This document shows positions 6,022-60,525 of a stretch of DNA of 64,000 nucleotides, piece after piece. The stretch is taken from the NCBI RefSeq assembly GCF_014174165.1, contig NZ_JABEQN010000003.1:62001-126000 (forward strand). Direction: 5' to 3'. Positions within the stretch are counted from its first letter, which is position 1; every line of letters starts with the position of its first letter. A program made the translations under genes and the position numbers. This stretch comes from Gluconacetobacter dulcium (GTDB lineage Bacteria > Pseudomonadota > Alphaproteobacteria > Acetobacterales > Acetobacteraceae). The notes beneath the pieces were generated by a model. The model did no database searches. It saw nothing but the letters and a program-made list of their open reading frames with translations, and was not told the origin of the DNA.

Positions 6022-9000
6022 TTACGCGCTACGCGCCGCTTCGGTCGTCAGGTTATACCCGATCACCTTCGCATATTCGCGCGGCACCAATTGCCAGAAG
6101 CGCGGCAGGATATTCTCCCACTTGTGCAGCATCAGCGCGGCGTAGCGGCTGTGCGTCTCGCGCGCATGGGTCTCCACCAACCCGCGCAGAACCGCCTCCC
6201 ATTTCGGGTCGATCACACGGTTCCACAGCAGCGTATCGGGGTTGATCCGCTGCTCGAACGTGCCGTTCTCGTCATAGACGAAGGCCATGCCGCCGGTGAA
6301 ACCGGCGCCGAAATTGTCGCCCGCCTCACCCAGAATGACCACGGTACCGCCGGTCATGTATTCGCAGCCGTTCGACCCGCAGCCTTCCACGACCGCCGTG
6401 GCACCCGAATTGCGCACGGCAAAGCGCTCGCCCGCCTGCCCGGCGGCGTAGAGCGCCCCGGCCGTCGCGCCATACAGCACCGTGTTGCCGATAATGGCGT
6501 TCTCGTTCGACACCAGGTTCGACGACGGCGACTGCCGCACCACGATGGTCGCGCCCGACAGGCCCTTGCCGACATAATCGTTGGCGTCGCCCAGCACTTC
6601 CAGCTTCAGCCCCTGGACCGCGAACGCCCCCAGCGACTGGCCCGCCGAGCCGCGCAGGCGCACCGTCAGGTGCCCCGGCGCCAGCTTGGCCATGCCGAAC
6701 TGGCGCACGATCAGCGAGGAAATGCGCGTGCCGATCGCCCGGTGCGTGTTCTGCACGTTGTAGTGCAGTTGCATCTTCTCGCCATGGTCGAACAGCGGCC
6801 GCGCATCGGCGATCATCTGCGCATCCAGCGTCTCGGGCACCTCATTGCGCCCTTCGCGGGTGCAGTAGCGCGCATGCGGCCCCGGATCGGCCTGGGCCAG
6901 CAGCGAATTGAGGTCCAGATCGTCCAGATAATCCGCCCCGCGCGACACCTGCTTGAGCAGGTCCGTCCGCCCGATGATCTCGTTCAGCGACGAGAACCCG
7001 AGCGAGGCCAGGATGTTGCGCACGTCGTCGGCGATGAACGAGAACAGGTTGATCACCTTTTCCGGCGAGCCCTCGAACTTGGCGCGCAGCGCCTCGTCCT
7101 GAGTACAGACGCCGACCGGGCAGGTGTTGGAATGGCACTGCCGCACCATGATGCAGCCCATGGCGACCAGGCTGGCGGTGCCGATGCCGAATTCCTCGGC
7201 CCCCAGCATCGCCGCGATCACCACGTCGCGCCCGGTCTTCAGCCCGCCATCGGTACGCAGCTTCACCCGGTGGCGCAGGCGGTTCAGCATCAGCACCTGA
7301 TGCGCTTCCGCCAGCCCCAGTTCCCACGGTAGTCCGGCATATTTGACCGAACTCTGCGGGCTGGCCCCGGTGCCCCCGCTATGGCCGGAAATCAGGATCG
7401 CGTCGGCCTTGGCCTTGGCCACGCCGGCGGCGATGGTGCCGATGCCCGAGCGCGCGACCAGCTTCACCGTCACCGTGGCTTCGGGATTGATCTGCTTGAG
7501 GTCGTAGATGAGTTGCGCCAGATCCTCGATCGAATAGATGTCATGATGCGGCGGCGGCGAGATCAGCGTCACGCCGGGTGTCGCATGCCGCAGCTTCGCG
7601 ATCAGCCCCGTCACCTTGAAGCCGGGCAACTGCCCGCCCTCGCCGGGCTTGGCGCCCTGGGCCATCTTGATCTCGATCTCGCGGCAATCGTTCAGATACT
7701 GCGCCGTGACGCCGAAGCGCCCCGAGGCGATCTGCTTGATGGCCGAGGACGCATTGTCGCCGTTCGGGCGCGGCTTCGCGCGCGCGGGGTCTTCGCCCCC
7801 CTCGCCGGAATCCGACTTCGCGCCGATCCGGTTCATGGCGATCGACAGGGTCTCGTGCGCCTCGGGGCTCAGCGCCCCCAGCGAGATCCCCGGTGCGATC
7901 AGCCGCTTGCGCAACTGGGTGATGCTCTCGACCGCCTCGACGGGGATCGGCGTCCGTCCGCCACGGAAATCCAGCAGGTCGCGCAATGCCACCGGCGGCT
8001 GGCGCCGCACCGCATCGGCATAGCGGCGATAGATGGTGAAGCTGTCGGTCGCCACCGCCGTTTGCAGCATATGGATCAGGTTGCCGTCGAAGGCGTGGAC
8101 CTCGCCATGGCGGCGCATCTTGTACTGGCCGCCCACCGGCAGCGCGATCACCGTCTGGTCCCACGCGGTCCGATGGAAGCTCAGCACGTTGGTTGCGATG
8201 CCCGACAGGCCGATGCCGGAGATGCGCGAGGGCATGCCGGGGAAGAATTCCGCCGTCAGCGCCCGCGACAGGCCGATCGCCTCGAAATTATAGCCGCCGC
8301 GATAGGCCGAGACGATCGAGATGCCCATCTTGGACATCACCTTCAGCAGCCCCTTGTCCACCGCCTTGCGATAGCGTTCCACCGCCTCGCGCAGCGAGAT
8401 CTCGCCGAACAGGCCGCGCCGCTGCCGGTCGGCAATGCTTTCCTGCGCCAGGTAGGGGTTGATGCTGGTTGCGCCGACGCCGATCGTCACGGCGATCGCA
8501 TGCACGTCCAGCGCCTCGGCCGAGCGCACGTTCAGCGAGGTGAAGGTGCGCAGCGACTGGCGGACCAGATGCGTATGCACCGCCGCCGTCGCCAGGATCA
8601 TCGGGATATAGGCGCGGTCGCCCGACTGCGCCTGATCGGTCAGGAACAGGTGGGTGCAGCCTTCGCGCACCCGATCCTCGGCCTCGCGCCGGATGCGGGC
8701 GATCGCCTCGCGCAGCCCCGCCTCGCCTTCCGCCGCCGGAAAGGTGCAGTCGATCACGAAGCCGCTGTCACCGCAGAAATTGCGCAGCGCCTCGAATTCG
8801 CCGCTGGTCAGCACCGGGCTGGGCAGTTGCAGCAGGTCGCACTGGACCTCGGATTCCTCCAGGATGTTGCCCAGATTGCCCAGACGGGTCAGCAGGCTCA
8901 TCACCCGCGTCTCGCGCAGGCTGTCGATCGGCGGGTTGGTTACCTGGCTGAACGCCTGGCGGAAATAATGCGCCAGCCCCCGATAGCGCGAGGACAGCAC

Positions 9001-13337: not shown

Positions 13338-13424
13338 GCCCAGATGGCGGAATTGGTAGACGCGCAGGTTTCAGGTACCTGTGGCCGCAAGGTCGTGGAA
13401 GTTCGAGTCTTCTTCTGGGCACCA
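13338..13424 (+). tRNA. tRNA-Leu (anticodon CAG), copy 1
   Basis: An 87-base class II tRNA with encoded CCA. The acceptor stem is GCCCAGA with TCTGGGC, the D-arm contains AATTGGTAGACGC, and the anticodon stem CAGGT/ACCTG encloses TTCAGGT, giving CAG. It has a long variable arm and the T-arm GTTCGAGTC. It is identical to the copy at 17171-17257. A short hairpin CCCCGGAAACGGGG lies in the leader of both copies. Confidence 0.97.
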
Positions 13425-17170: not shown

Positions 17171-17257
17171 GCCCAGATGGCGGAATTGGTAGACGCGCAG
17201 GTTTCAGGTACCTGTGGCCGCAAGGTCGTGGAAGTTCGAGTCTTCTTCTGGGCACCA
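17171..17257 (+). tRNA. tRNA-Leu (anticodon CAG), copy 2
   Basis: Identical in all 87 bases to the copy at 13338-13424, exactly 3833 bases further on. The near-identity runs from the -10 box through the CCA (about 126 bp) and stops soon after it, so the duplicated unit is promoter end plus tRNA. Confidence 0.97.
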
Positions 17258-17477
17258 TCTCTTCAGCCGGATCAGCGACATCGCCCGCTCGGGCGTCACG
17301 AGGCCCTCGGGCGTTTGCCCCCCCCCTCGCGCAACGGCACTTCCGATATTATATGTCCGTCACTGCCCCGGCAGCCGCGCATGCCGGCATACCGGCGCCG
17401 ACATGCGTCTTGCGGATTGGAATCATGGACCGTTCTTTCATTTTCCGTCGTCATGCCCGCCGCGCGGGGGCCCACGC

Positions 17478-40104: not shown

Positions 40105-40258
40105 CCCCTTCTGTCGGTTTGCCTGAGATCGCTATCCCGTCGGCGGACGCGCGAGGCGCCTCTCTCCAGAAGTCGAAGCCGGGCGGTCCTTTGGCCTGAG
40201 AGTTTCCGGGGCGGTTGCTCCTTCGGCGCCGGCTCTCGCCAGTCTCTCCCGCGTCAGC
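40105..40258 (-). promoter_or_regulatory. Tandem glycine riboswitch
   Basis: On the minus strand aptamer 1 (about 40258-40178) reads CGGGAGAGACTGG, then GCCGAAGGAGCAA and ACTCTCAGGCCAAAGGACCG. Aptamer 2 (about 40172-40105) reads CTGGAGAGAGGCGCC, then GCCGACGGGATAGCGATCTC and AGGCAAACCGACAG. These are the conserved cores of the two glycine-binding domains of the gcvT RNA. It ends about 130 bases before the gcvT start, so glycine is expected to switch gcvTHP on. Confidence 0.92.
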
Positions 40259-40386
40259 ATCCGGATGCTTCGCATATGTTGCGCAATCAAGTCAATCGTC
40301 CTCACACCGCCGCGAGGGGTGGATCGCAGGCCCCCGGCGCCCTACCCTTGCCCCCCGGACACAAGACGACAAGGAGGCGCGTGACC

Positions 40387-48219: not shown

Positions 48220-48795
48220 ATGGCGGGTAGCGTCAACAAGGTCATCCTCGTGGGCAATCTGGGGAAGGACCCGGAAGTCAGGAACAGCCAGAACGGCGCC
48301 AAGATCGTCTCGCTGACGCTGGCCACCAGCGACAGCTGGAACGACAAGGCATCGGGCGAGCGGCGCGAGAAGACCGAGTGGCATCGCGTCGTCATCTTCA
48401 ACGAGCGCATCGCCGACGTTGCCGAGCGTTTCCTGCGCAAGGGCCGCAAAATCTATCTGGAAGGCTCGCTCCAGACCCGCAAATGGACCGACCAGTCGGG
48501 GCAGGAACGCTATACGACCGAAGTGGTCGTGGACCGTTTCCGTGGCGAGCTGGTGCTGCTGGACAGCAACCGCGGCGGCGAAGGCGGCGATGATGCCGGC
48601 GGCGGATATGGCGGTGGCGGTTATGGCGGCGGCGGCGGATACGGCGCGCCGGCGGCGGCTCCGCGCCAGATCGGCGGCGGACGCGGCAACGCGGGCGGCG
48701 GCAGCCATGGCGGCCCCGGCGCGCCGGCCGGCGGTGGCGGCTGGGACGCCCCGCACGGTGGCGGCAGCGACCTGGACGACGAAATTCCGTTCTGA
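48220..48795 (+). CDS. ssb: Single-stranded DNA-binding protein
   Basis: A 191-residue tetrameric SSB. The OB-fold occupies residues 1 to about 110 ([60 protein letters not shown]). A long Gly-rich linker (about 70 residues) follows, then the acidic tip DLDDEIPF that binds partner proteins. The ATG at 48220 is preceded by GCGGCAGGGCA. Confidence 0.97.
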
Positions 48796-56421: not shown

Positions 56422-56826
56422 ATGGGAAGAGCACCAACTAAGTTTTCGTTCCTCAAAGACGTGGAGATCGTCGCAAAGAAGACGGGCGTTCAGAAGAGCC
56501 CGCGTGACGCTTTCATCGCAGCCATCGATAAGCAAATCGATGCCGCTGAAACTCTCCGTGACGGCAAAGACCTACAGACGGGCAAGAAGGCTTCACGCCT
56601 TTGGTTCAAGACGGACTTTGCGGGAAACATCACGACCGATATCCGCTATGGCGCTAGGACCATTGATCTGCCGGGCATGACCAAGGGCAAGACGTTCAAG
56701 GTTGGTCAGGGCTACGACACTCTGATCGGCTTCTACGAGAAAGTCCGGGAGAGCGCGGAAGCTGGCGAGTTCGATGATATCCTGATCAAGATGTCCTCGG
56801 AGATCGCTAGCCGTCTCGGTCGGTAA
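56422..56826 (+). CDS. Prophage protein of unknown function (134 aa)
   Basis: Not recognised. Soluble, basic N-terminus (MGRAPTKFSFLKDVEIVAKK), a FAGNITTDIRYGARTIDLPG stretch that looks like a beta-hairpin, and a helical C-terminus. The ATG lies 20 bases past the palindrome at 56391. The 693 bases after it hold no gene. Confidence 0.7.
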   Translation: MGRAPTKFSFLKDVEIVAKKTGVQKSPRDAFIAAIDKQIDAAETLRDGKDLQTGKKASRLWFKTDFAGNITTDIRYGARTIDLPGMTKGKTFKVGQGYDTLIGFYEKVRESAEAGEFDDILIKMSSEIASRLGR

Positions 56827-57170
56827 GCTGTGACCTGACGCAACGACGCCCACAGAACCCCTGAGAGCCCCGTGTGCTGGATTAGTGCTCGGGGCAGCAC
56901 ACACGCTGCCGGATACAGCTTGACCGTCTCAGCGGGCTTCTGAGGGCGTTGCAGAGGGCGCCCGGCCTCCCTACGCGCCTGCGGCCAAGAGGTATGCGGC
57001 TGCGCCGCAAGCGTACTGGATGCCTGCGGCAGACAGGACGCGCTAGCGTCGTGCGAAGCACCCGGTGGTTATGAGCGATAGCTCAAGCACTCGGATGGAG
57101 CCACGAGCATGAGCGATAGCGAATGCGAAGTGGCACCAAGCCGTTTGCGATTTGTGAGTTTTGTTTTGAT
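56827..57170. other. GC-rich non-coding block inside the prophage
   Basis: Roughly 300 bases with chromosome-like GC in otherwise AT-rich prophage DNA. No convincing gene. It contains short hairpins (GCGGCTGCGCCGC near 56998) and the word ATGAGCGATAGC twice (about 57070 and 57110). Possible scar of inserted host DNA or a structured RNA. Confidence 0.35.
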
Positions 57171-57182
57171 GGGGTGGTATAC

Positions 57183-57200
57183 TATATACTATAGTATATA
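57183..57200. promoter_or_regulatory. 18-bp AT palindrome
   Basis: TATATACTATAGTATATA, perfect dyad, at the sharp boundary from GC-rich to AT-rich DNA and just before three 14-bp repeats. Confidence 0.4.
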
Positions 57201-57206
57201 TGATGC

Positions 57207-57351
57207 TACTCTATTAAAATAAAGCTCACGCTTCCTTAAAGTATATTGTTCTACTCTATTAAAATCTGAAAATGATCCGGTACGGATTTCCATATTCCAG
57301 TGATATATCCAGAATGAATGAAGATGTCTTTTTGTGTTACTCTATTAAAAT
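57207..57351 (+). repeat. Three direct copies of TACTCTATTAAAAT
   Basis: Exact 14-bp copies at 57207-57220, 57252-57265 and 57338-57351, spaced 45 and 86 bases apart, in non-coding DNA. They could be iterons, regulator sites or phage promoters. Confidence 0.6.
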
Positions 57352-57399
57352 AATGACGCGAAGACGCCTCAGATTATAAATAGAAATACAAGAAGAAGC

Positions 57400-57520
57400 A
57401 GACCCCACCAAGATATGCTTCCCAATAAATAAACATATGAAAAGCCGATTGATTAGCTGGTCCTGTGGTGGGGTCTTCCAGCTAGTTGGTCGGCTTTTCC
57501 TATTTTGAAAGACTCCACCA
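57400..57520 (+). ncRNA. Predicted pseudoknot/switch RNA upstream of the 119-aa gene
   Basis: Segment B (57439-57460) pairs with B' (57478-57499) over 22 positions with a few G-U pairs. The 17-base loop holds A' (57466-57476, TGGTGGGGTCT). A' is the exact complement of A (57400-57410) and, with one G-U, of A'' (57510-57520), which ends on the A of the next start codon. The order A-B-A'-B'-A'' allows an H-type pseudoknot or a switch between two pairings. B' runs into TTTTCCTATTTT, so termination is also possible. No known RNA family is recognised. Confidence 0.6.
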
Positions 57521-57879
57521 TGTCTAATGTCATAGAATTTTATAACAAGCGGGATGAAGCCCGCAAAGCATTACAGGACTTCGCACTCAAGCATCACGAC
57601 GAATGCGGCACTTCGACCATATATGACGATTTCATAACATTCGACGAGATATGGACCGGTGGCCCTCACGAAGCAAATATGCGCCGTGCGGTCGATTGCG
57701 AGGAATACTACACTGTCAAATTTTCAACATTAGATGAATCCAGAAAACATCACTACGATATAGACGCTCTCATACAGAGATATTGTCGTTTGCGAGACAC
57801 AGTAGAGGCTCATGAGAATGGTGACGATTCTTTGATGTTCTTTCTGTCATGGACTCCGAACAAAGGAGACGCATCATGA
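57520..57879 (+). CDS. Prophage protein of unknown function (119 aa), behind the structured leader
   Basis: Not recognised. Soluble, acidic, histidine- and tyrosine-rich (NKRDEARKALQDFALKHHDE; FDEIWTGGPHEANMRRAVDC). There is no Shine-Dalgarno in front of the ATG at 57520, which instead overlaps segment A'' of the RNA structure. A TTG at 57505 would add five residues. Its stop overlaps the next start (ATGA), so both genes would be affected by translation control. Confidence 0.65.
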   Translation: MSNVIEFYNKRDEARKALQDFALKHHDECGTSTIYDDFITFDEIWTGGPHEANMRRAVDCEEYYTVKFSTLDESRKHHYDIDALIQRYCRLRDTVEAHENGDDSLMFFLSWTPNKGDAS

Positions 57880-58391
57880 ACGAAGACATCAAGGCATATT
57901 TGATAGGACGTTACACAAAGTCCAGAGAACGCCAACTCGCAAAAGGCATAGACTTCCAGATCACAGAAGAACAATACCTCGAAATGTTTGCACGCAAGAA
58001 GTCAGCACTGACCAGACTCACCAGACAACATGACGCTTACCTGCTCGGTAAGACAGACCGGCCAATGTTTAAGGTCGATATCTGTTTGACATGGAAACCC
58101 GGCTTTGCACGAACAGGCGCAGCAATGACCATCGAAACAGCCGGCCTCTACACAAGCCAGAACAGCAAAGTGAACAACAGACTTCGCGCCGGTGAGAAGA
58201 AGACCGACGAGGCAAAGGCAAAACTCAAAAAGCCGAAGAGCAACGAACACAAGAAATCCATTGGCGAAAGTTGCAAAGGAAAGCCGAAGGCAACATGGAG
58301 CCCGGAACGCAAAGCAGCGAGAGCGGCAAAGATGAAGGGGCGGAAGAGAGGCCCATACAACAAGACGACATCAGGAGACATCCGAATATGA
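57876..58391 (+). CDS. Prophage protein with NUMOD3-like basic C-terminus
   Basis: 171 residues. The first 90 are unfamiliar (ITEEQYLEMFARKKSALTRL). From about residue 110 it is strongly basic, and KSNEHKKSIGESCKGKPKAT then WSPERKAARAAKMKGRK resembles the NUMOD3 DNA-binding repeat seen in GIY-YIG and HNH homing endonucleases. No nuclease motif is visible, so it may be a DNA-binding relic or regulator. The start overlaps the upstream stop (ATGA); the end overlaps the convergent gene by 21 bases. Confidence 0.6.
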   Translation: MNEDIKAYLIGRYTKSRERQLAKGIDFQITEEQYLEMFARKKSALTRLTRQHDAYLLGKTDRPMFKVDICLTWKPGFARTGAAMTIETAGLYTSQNSKVNNRLRAGEKKTDEAKAKLKKPKSNEHKKSIGESCKGKPKATWSPERKAARAAKMKGRKRGPYNKTTSGDIRI

Positions 58392-59982: not shown

Positions 59983-60525
59983 ATGACGTGCATTGTAGGA
60001 TACATGGAAAATGACAAGGTTATCATTGGAGCCGATTCACTAGGCTCCAATGGACATTCGAAGACTATATACGTGGAATCAAAAGCCTTCATCAATGGTC
60101 CAATGATTATCGGATATACGACCTCATTTCGAATGGGCCAGATACTCGAATACCATTTAGTAATCCCGGAACAACTCTCAAGTCAGACAGACATGGCCTT
60201 TATGGTTATGAGTTTTGTGCCAGCAGTGAGACACACTTTATCAACACATGGTTTTACACCCGCAAGTGAAAAAGACGCAGATGCAGGCGTTCAGTTCTTA
60301 GTCGGCTATAAGGGTCAACTCTACGAAATATCGAGCGATTTTCAAGTATCGAAGACTGTGGACCCATTCGCATCCGTGGGATCGGGATATCAGTTTGCAC
60401 TTGGATCACTGGCATCGACTCAAGAGTTGGACATACCTGTTTCCGATAAGGTCAGGATCGCACTAGAGGTAGCAGAACGATATACCACGACAGTCTCTGG
60501 ACCATTTAACTACCGAACTAAATAA
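59983..60525 (+). CDS. Phage-encoded Ntn-hydrolase (HslV/proteasome-like) protein
   Basis: 180 residues. The start MTCIVGYMENDKVIIGADSL matches proteasome-beta/HslV-type N-terminal nucleophile proteins: after Met removal Thr2 would be the nucleophile, and GADS supplies the usual Asp. FINGPMIIGYTTSFRMGQIL and FASVGSGYQFALGSLAS follow the same fold order (GSGxxFALG is the late-strand motif). Such proteins occur singly in phage genomes with unknown substrates. It could be a prohead or scaffold protease or an inactive relative. AAGAAAGGA precedes the ATG. Confidence 0.7.
   Translation: MTCIVGYMENDKVIIGADSLGSNGHSKTIYVESKAFINGPMIIGYTTSFRMGQILEYHLVIPEQLSSQTDMAFMVMSFVPAVRHTLSTHGFTPASEKDADAGVQFLVGYKGQLYEISSDFQVSKTVDPFASVGSGYQFALGSLASTQELDIPVSDKVRIALEVAERYTTTVSGPFNYRTK

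Follow-up and report, generated by a model that had tools for sequence, protein, structure and literature searches.

Results

The prophage and the operon downstream of the leader

The window, a stretch of 64,000 nucleotides from Gluconacetobacter dulcium, contains a prophage, and the leader analyzed here lies within it, 3 kb downstream of the integrase gene. The prophage is present in IMG/VR as a 36.8-kb contig, where five query proteins were identical. Further along it, terminase, capsid, tape measure, baseplate and lysozyme genes were recognized. When 29 prophage proteins or parts of them were compared with PHROGs, none was named a repressor, and many were of no known function.

Two genes on the plus strand follow the leader. 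The first (57520..57879, 119 aa) had no match in Pfam, PHROGs or NCBIfam and was matched in one of 397 genomes, its own; a single weak match in an Actinomycetes MAG (28%) was discarded as not useful. The second (57876..58391, 171 aa) overlaps the first by ATGA. It has its own Shine-Dalgarno-like stretch (-9.3 kcal/mol) and therefore need not follow the 119-aa gene. Its homologues are rare: they were found in 2 of 397, 0 of 49, 0 of 19 and 3 of 308 genomes (its own included where searched) and in two viral contigs.

Other features of the stretch were also recorded. Three TACTCTATTAAAAT repeats (57207-57220, 57252-57265 and 57338-57351) lie upstream of the leader, the third abutting the -35-like box; they are absent from the related prophage L185, and we read them as operator or origin repeats. 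An AT-rich imperfect palindrome with 38-nt arms (57154-57229) lies directly 3' of a GC-rich non-coding stretch. Two members of phrog_31551, a family of unknown function, are found one at each prophage end (56422-56826 and, beyond the window, 88579-89091 in window numbering, L157:10579-11088). The prophage gene at 59983-60525 matched the peptidase HslV family (phrog_1040), with a weak match to proteasome subunits as well. Elsewhere, there are a glycine riboswitch (Rfam RF00504) on the minus strand at 40174-40261 and two tRNA-Leu(CAG) genes (13338-13424 and 17171-17257), 3.8 kb apart and with equal model scores.

Anatomy of the leader

The leader and its upstream boxes lie between 57349 and 57520 on the plus strand. 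First come two promoter-like boxes, AATAATGAC (57349-57357) and TATAAATA (57375-57382). The same boxes recur in two related prophages, L185 and L196, in a region where blastn gives no DNA alignment. We infer that the boxes act as a promoter, and a sigma-70 consensus scan did not report 57349-57382 as one. An ATAAATA motif starts 24 nt upstream of seqA (AGACCCCACCA, 57400..57410), the upstream target, which is located in the loop of a small predicted hairpin (hairpin 1, 57395..57421). Upstream-target hairpins were also predicted in L185, L196 and a further leader, L188.

Hairpin 2 (57439..57499) consists of 22 uninterrupted pairs (arms 57439-57460 and 57478-57499) and a 17-nt loop (57461-57477), which contains the antisense segment seqB (57466..57476). 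seqB is the exact complement of seqA over 11 nt. The loop also pairs over 12 nt, with one G-U, with the downstream target seqC (AAGACTCCACCA, 57509..57520), whose last base is the A of the ATG. seqA and seqC are 28 and 9 nt away from the hairpin 2 stem, respectively. The hairpin and its upstream match were thus as given in the preliminary description, and the match at the start codon proved one base longer. A U-rich CUAUUUU lies directly 3' of hairpin 2, and the best anti-Shine-Dalgarno pairing at the 57520 start was -4.9 kcal/mol.

Four of the 22 stem pairs are G-U on the plus strand, and none is A-C, which would be G-U on the other strand. Where the stem departs from a perfect DNA palindrome, it does so in all four cases by a G-U on the plus strand, which is therefore the strand to read; the single departure in the seqC pairing is likewise G-U on it. 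Plus-strand hairpin 2 folded below all of 200 shuffles (z -5.7). The minus strand of 57395-57540 folded modestly below its shuffles (z -2.3, 5 of 200 as good). No promoter-like site was found on the minus strand from 57230 to 57700 by the consensus scan, which also missed the proposed plus-strand promoter.

Chance and uniqueness of the pairings

The flanks were dinucleotide-shuffled 20,000 times with the loop fixed. Six shuffles reached 11 nt upstream, four reached 11 nt downstream with one G-U allowed, and none reached both. By duplex energy, 4 of 1000 shuffles were as good as the upstream pairing, which is therefore less extreme by this measure, and 0 of 1000 were as good as the downstream pairing.

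A two-sided test required a stem of at least 11 and a pairing of 9 nt on each side. Hairpin 2 was the only hairpin in the window to pass. For controls, a 14-base loop pattern was used to collect at least 120 viral stretches; one of them (L122) was this same prophage, and the other 119 served as controls. The loop sequence is over-represented in these 119 stretches, which makes them a harsher control. Together with the other fetched loci they comprised 2.39 million strand-bases, in which eight hairpins passed and none reached 11+11. Among 20 later-fetched stretches, one repeat-rich place in L186 exceeded 11+11, but with a 10-bp stem. In its own 4.41-Mb genome, AGACYCCACCA occurs at three sites only, namely seqA, seqC and the loop complement; the reversed control pattern occurs at one. 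A blast search of the leader DNA against 100 relatives gave, besides its own genome, only short matches (best E 0.007, 18 nt), and a search against phages gave none.

According to nested cofolding, a model that cannot represent loop contacts, binding brings no energy gain in the window (+3.5 and +3.8 kcal/mol) and a gain of -0.5 to -16.2 kcal/mol in L185 and L196. In the latter two, seqA is mostly paired within hairpin 1.

Homologous leaders and compensatory changes

L185 was found through its integrase and is 80% identical to the window over 3.3 kb of DNA covering the integrase and the next two genes. L196 was also found through its integrase, and L212 is an identical copy of it in another genome (0 mismatches in 10 kb). 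In L185 and L196 the 119-aa gene is absent and the homologue of the 57876 gene lies directly 3' of the leader; in alignment, the 57876 protein and these homologues share 40-42% identity. Both leaders have a hairpin with the loop segment TGGTTGGTCCC, the upstream target GGGACCAACCA and the downstream target GGACTAACCA, which ends just before the ATG, at the same place as seqC in the window.

The loop segments of L185 and L196 differ from that of the window at 4 of 11 positions. The changes are compensated at four of the four positions in seqA and at three of the four in seqC, where the outermost position is the exception. Duplex energies of cognate pairs were -16.9 to -23.0 kcal/mol, and those of non-cognate pairs -10.7 to -12.1 kcal/mol. 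The earlier claim of one loop with two partners, one of them on the start region, was thereby strengthened, but the competing cis pseudoknot attached to it became one possibility among others.

A fourth homologous leader, L218, also has a homologue of the 57876 gene as the first gene 3' of the RNA. It carries a 14-bp hairpin 3' of the same kind of box. No upstream partner was found for its loop (758 of 1000 shuffles were as good); downstream there is a 9-bp exact match inside a broken duplex, equalled by 4 of 1000 shuffles. Both partners were kept in three of the four distinct homologous leaders (window, L185 and L196), and two-partner competition is therefore not a fixed feature. The expectation that homologous prophages would keep the complementarity was borne out for L185 and L196, through compensation, and failed for the upstream partner in L218.

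The starts of L185 and L196 have clear Shine-Dalgarno sequences (-10.4 and -10.3 kcal/mol, respectively), overlapped by the seqC partner. The earlier observation that the gene lacks such a sequence was roughly right at 57520, but does not extend to these two. The predicted outer stem of L185 and L196 reaches the Shine-Dalgarno sequence, so its opening could activate translation. This bears on the alternative that the short RNA is an activator, in which a terminated leader RNA would act in trans to make the long transcript translatable. A prophage leader RNA of this kind, Gifsy-1 IsrK, with short and long forms and an activator role in trans, is described in the passages on it in PMC4825925, and the seqA region of phage P4 itself matches the Rfam isrK model (RF01394). 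The window did not match this model, whereas the P4 control did. The leader resembles IsrK in being a prophage leader RNA and probably differs in the activator role. Moreover, seqC lies on the start region in the window, L185 and L196 alike, where pairing should block ribosomes. We therefore consider activation improbable.

Further leaders in front of other genes

L186 comes from a species of the same genus and adjoins a 46% identical integrase; it was flagged by the two-sided scan. On its minus strand, ACGATCCACCA is followed by a hairpin with the loop GTCTGTGGTGGATCGT, a U run and then the beginning of a gene for a 543-aa protein that matches a VapE-like domain. A one-sided scan of 16 regions led to L188 and L190. 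In L188, the entire loop (GAACTGCAATTTC) is complementary to the leader, and a 532-aa gene lies 35 nt downstream. L190 has a 14-nt match with one G-U, and a 533-aa DUF5906 gene also lies 35 nt downstream. L188 and L190 encode proteins that share 30% identity, and the L188 gene is counted here with the VapE/DUF5906 type; their loops and targets are wholly different, each loop matching its own target. We presume that the VapE/DUF5906-type genes after these three leaders point to a link with replication.

The upstream pairings of L186, L188 and L190 beat 1000 of 1000 shuffles. L186 has a weak downstream partner of 8 bp, within codons 8-10 and equalled by 4 of 1000 shuffles; L188 and L190 have none. 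Such a leader precedes all three genes, a partly circular count given that these genes were reached through the scans, and no further homologue of them was found among the 25 stretches searched.

In 0.53 million strand-bases, the one-sided scan gave nine unique places that lie between genes and have an ORF starting no more than 150 nt away. They include the window, L185 and L196 as well as AT-rich or repeat-like places (L187 and L196 +6307). The controls gave four hits, three of them unique, in 2.14 million strand-bases. The enrichment of nine versus three is descriptive, as it was counted after some members were known.

Several candidates were rejected. The complementarities of L197 are GTGCCGATAA repeats, which are iteron-like. 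The place at 13439-13622 of L186 has a longer two-sided pairing (21 and 13 nt), but it is a AGGGAGATA-type repeat with a weak 10-bp stem. The inverted structure at L190 +17234 and its mirror are repeat-rich and not at a start codon. Six regions with a homologue of the 56422 gene (L200-L205), which lay outside the one-sided scan, showed scattered two-sided matches, and none was accepted. Low-score Rfam matches to microRNA families at the leader were dismissed as AT-rich chance.

Other structures were noted in these regions. A tRNA gene, a usual kind of integration site, lies directly 5' of the integrase gene in both L186 (9782-9854) and L190 (9671-9742). The AGGGAGATA-type direct and inverted repeats of L186 (13439-13622) are near the VapE-like gene and look origin-like. 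Nested inverted repeats lie upstream of a DUF5906 gene in L190 (minus strand 2656-2890, with a mirror on the plus strand at 17189-17345), with TGGGGGTTTT/AAAACCCCCA partners flanking two hairpins on both sides. Hairpin loops complementary to their flanks, of the GCCCTAAAGTTA type, were seen on the minus strand of L190 (7596-7700) and in L191 (14145-14187). The hairpins at L190 minus 7622 and L191 +14145 precede 186- and 202-aa genes, respectively. Judged by its start sequence, the 186-aa gene of L190 looks like a resolvase gene, and these hairpins may be recombinase sites.

Features shared by the seven leaders

L185, L196, L186, L188 and L190 were all found by scanning hairpin loops against their flanks near a gene start, without RNA sequence similarity. 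Six of the seven leaders come from genomes of one bacterial family. An accepted leader was present in 4 of 13 other genomes with integrase-homologue regions, so the leader is not universal beside integrase homologues. The order target, antisense, target within one leader was found in the window, L185 and L196, with a weaker downstream part in L186, and was not found in L218, L188 or L190. The downstream target is at the translation start of the first gene in the window, L185 and L196.

ATAAATA precedes seqA by 19-28 nt, or in L218 precedes the hairpin, in all seven leaders; its background frequency per position was 0.0004 when whole loci were counted and 0.0025 when the count was limited to 600 nt, and the rule was noticed after the leaders had been collected. 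When the box and the following 17 nt were used as a pattern against 2.9 million viral contigs, only the two known contigs were found.

A U-rich stretch is present 3' of the hairpins of L186, L188 and L190. The run of the hairpin into such a stretch, noted earlier for the window, holds there but is not kept in L185, L196 and L218. A role as intrinsic terminator common to all the hairpins was accordingly rejected.

Six of the seven leaders have a loop that pairs with the upstream target of the same leader, and among them there are five specificities. When five loops were combined with five upstream targets, cognate pairs had -19.3 to -23.2 kcal/mol and non-cognate pairs -0.2 to -12.5 kcal/mol. 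Loops and partners thus change together, and in three leaders one partner is at the start codon. Both facts speak against DNA-level inverted or direct repeats, that is, operator, recombinase or origin sites whose RNA pairing would be incidental, as do the departures from the palindrome, which are G-U on one strand throughout (four of four in the stem, plus one in seqC). Such matches do arise from repeats elsewhere, as in the iteron-like L197 and the AGGGAGATA-type place of L186 with its 21 and 13 nt, and the window itself has its three TACTCTATTAAAAT repeats upstream. On balance, an explanation by DNA repeats appears very improbable.

The same data bear on a switch in cis, in which the loop would pair within the same molecule either with seqA, as a kissing contact or pseudoknot, or with seqC, and so toggle the start region. 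Both partners are on the same transcript, at 28 and 9 nt from the stem; the 28-nt linker would allow pairing with seqA, and the outer stem predicted in L185 and L196 reaches the Shine-Dalgarno sequence. Such a switch resembles the pseudoknot control of replication genes in IncI-alpha and IncB plasmids, where a separate antisense RNA competes. By geometry, however, pairing with seqC in the window would strain a 9-nt linker across a 22-bp stem, and pairing with seqA over all 11 bp would likewise put strain on a loop linker of 1 nt. The number of partners varies, with L218, L188 and L190 having one partner only, and a purely cis device leaves the five non-matching specificities unexplained. We regard the cis switch as unlikely, though less so than activation. 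The five specificities, none matching another, suit an immunity or incompatibility RNA acting in trans better, and the earlier wording of a competing pseudoknot is narrower than the evidence supports.

Discussion

The pairings in the window are real, non-random and conserved by compensation, and they are explained in kind by the immunity RNAs of phages P4 and P1. We think it probable that the leader encodes an antisense RNA by which the operon is repressed, mostly in trans; it would be a new, differently folded variant of the P4/C4 type. In this model, the leader region would be transcribed as the 5' end of a prophage operon and would supply the operon's own antisense RNA, with the transcript starting just 3' of the ATAAATA box. 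The transcript would carry, in order, seqA in a small hairpin, the long hairpin displaying seqB, and seqC at the first start codon. Termination or processing of the leader might free copies of the seqB hairpin, which could then make loop contacts with the seqA and seqC sites of other leader transcripts, whether nascent or full-length. At seqC, such pairing would block the translation start of the operon; at seqA, it might cause an early transcript stop or mark the transcript for decay. The outcome would be self-repression that also strikes any incoming relative sharing these letters, and hence immunity or incompatibility of the kind seen in P4 and P1. Action in trans is preferred over action in cis because the specificities diversify, because the 9-nt seqC linker stands against a 22-bp stem, and because P1 and P4 provide a precedent.

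In favor of the antisense reading, we counted that no repressor was named among the scanned prophage proteins. Against it, we counted the leaders with a single partner (L218 without the upstream one, L188 and L190 without the downstream one), the presence of an accepted leader in no more than 4 of the 13 other genomes with integrase-homologue regions, the silence of the sigma-70 scan on the promoter, the nested-fold energies and the pairing of seqA in hairpin 1 of L185 and L196. The Shine-Dalgarno-like stretch of the second gene, the lack of known function of the window's regulated proteins and the failure of the hairpin scan to pick up the known P4 RNA were also counted against it.

More tentatively, the leaders may form an undescribed, fast-diversifying family of antisense hairpins that provides RNA immunity or copy control to integrative elements and prophages. 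Such a family would have at least five orthogonal specificities reached by concerted change of loop and target. Its fold would be independent of C4/CI, and P4-type immunity would then have been invented twice, by convergence or with deep divergence. Prophage immunity based on RNA alone is known from a small number of coli phages and their relatives. If the family is real, it would provide a second, structurally different RNA-immunity set with natural specificities, in which the evolution of new specificities could be tested. It would further reveal whether control by loop antisense is widespread but overlooked, its sequences changing too fast for homology searches.

Comparison with known antisense systems

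A search of open-licence full texts found no literature on such RNAs in this bacterial group. Stem-loop antisense RNAs also operate in plasmids. The control systems of IncI-alpha, IncB and IncFII plasmids and the attenuation system of pT181 use a stem-loop antisense RNA with kissing contacts or pseudoknots, and the present leader likewise presents its antisense in a hairpin loop. In those systems the antisense RNA comes from the opposite strand, whereas seqB and its targets share one strand. Through such kissing contacts, plasmid RNAs control rep genes and set incompatibility, according to the passages on them in PMC10724649.

The preliminary description knew of no RNA family like this one, but the same layout exists in the CI RNA of P4, in the passages of PMC4825925 that deal with it, and in the C4 RNA of P1, as annotated in the phage record. 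The P4 CI RNA pairs with seqA and seqC (PMC4825925), so that, as here, an upstream target, an antisense RNA and a downstream target are located in one leader. When 4.6 kb of P4 was submitted to an exact 8-nt triple test, 8463 was found to match 8651 and 8384; two other triples appeared, one of them the origin repeats. The middle segment at 8463 lies inside the Rfam C4 match. The P4 RNA was missed by the hairpin scan and recovered by the exact-triple test. Unlike P4, the window, L185 and L196 have one long hairpin with one antisense stretch in its loop.

The P1 record places targets a1 and b1 upstream of the C4 RNA (48343-48419) and targets a2 and b2 downstream. icd starts at 48470 and is followed by ant1, which overlaps it, just as genes 1 and 2 of the window overlap. 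An exact test at 7 nt on 500 bases of P1 recovered both annotated segments; at 9 nt, the exact test gave no triple in the window, where the G-U breaks the match. In P1, C4 carries a pair of short antisense segments, whose targets measure 7-8 nt, whereas the present leader has one segment of 11-12 nt. The P1 C4 RNA has a multi-stem fold. P1 has ant, whereas no antirepressor family was recognized among the downstream genes in the window.

The leaders were compared with Rfam models. As a positive control, the P4 CI RNA scored 74.9 bits with the C4 model (RF01695). This model gave no match in the window at the gathering score and none in 57130-57700 up to E=10; at the gathering score it gave none in L185, L196, L186, L190 and L218. 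The Rfam scan proposed earlier for the window found no family of any kind at its leader at the gathering score, and the same held for the leaders of L185, L196, L186, L190 and L218. The fold is new as far as it was compared by these Rfam models. The leader would thus work like the P4 and P1 control systems, yet by the model test it falls outside the C4 family.
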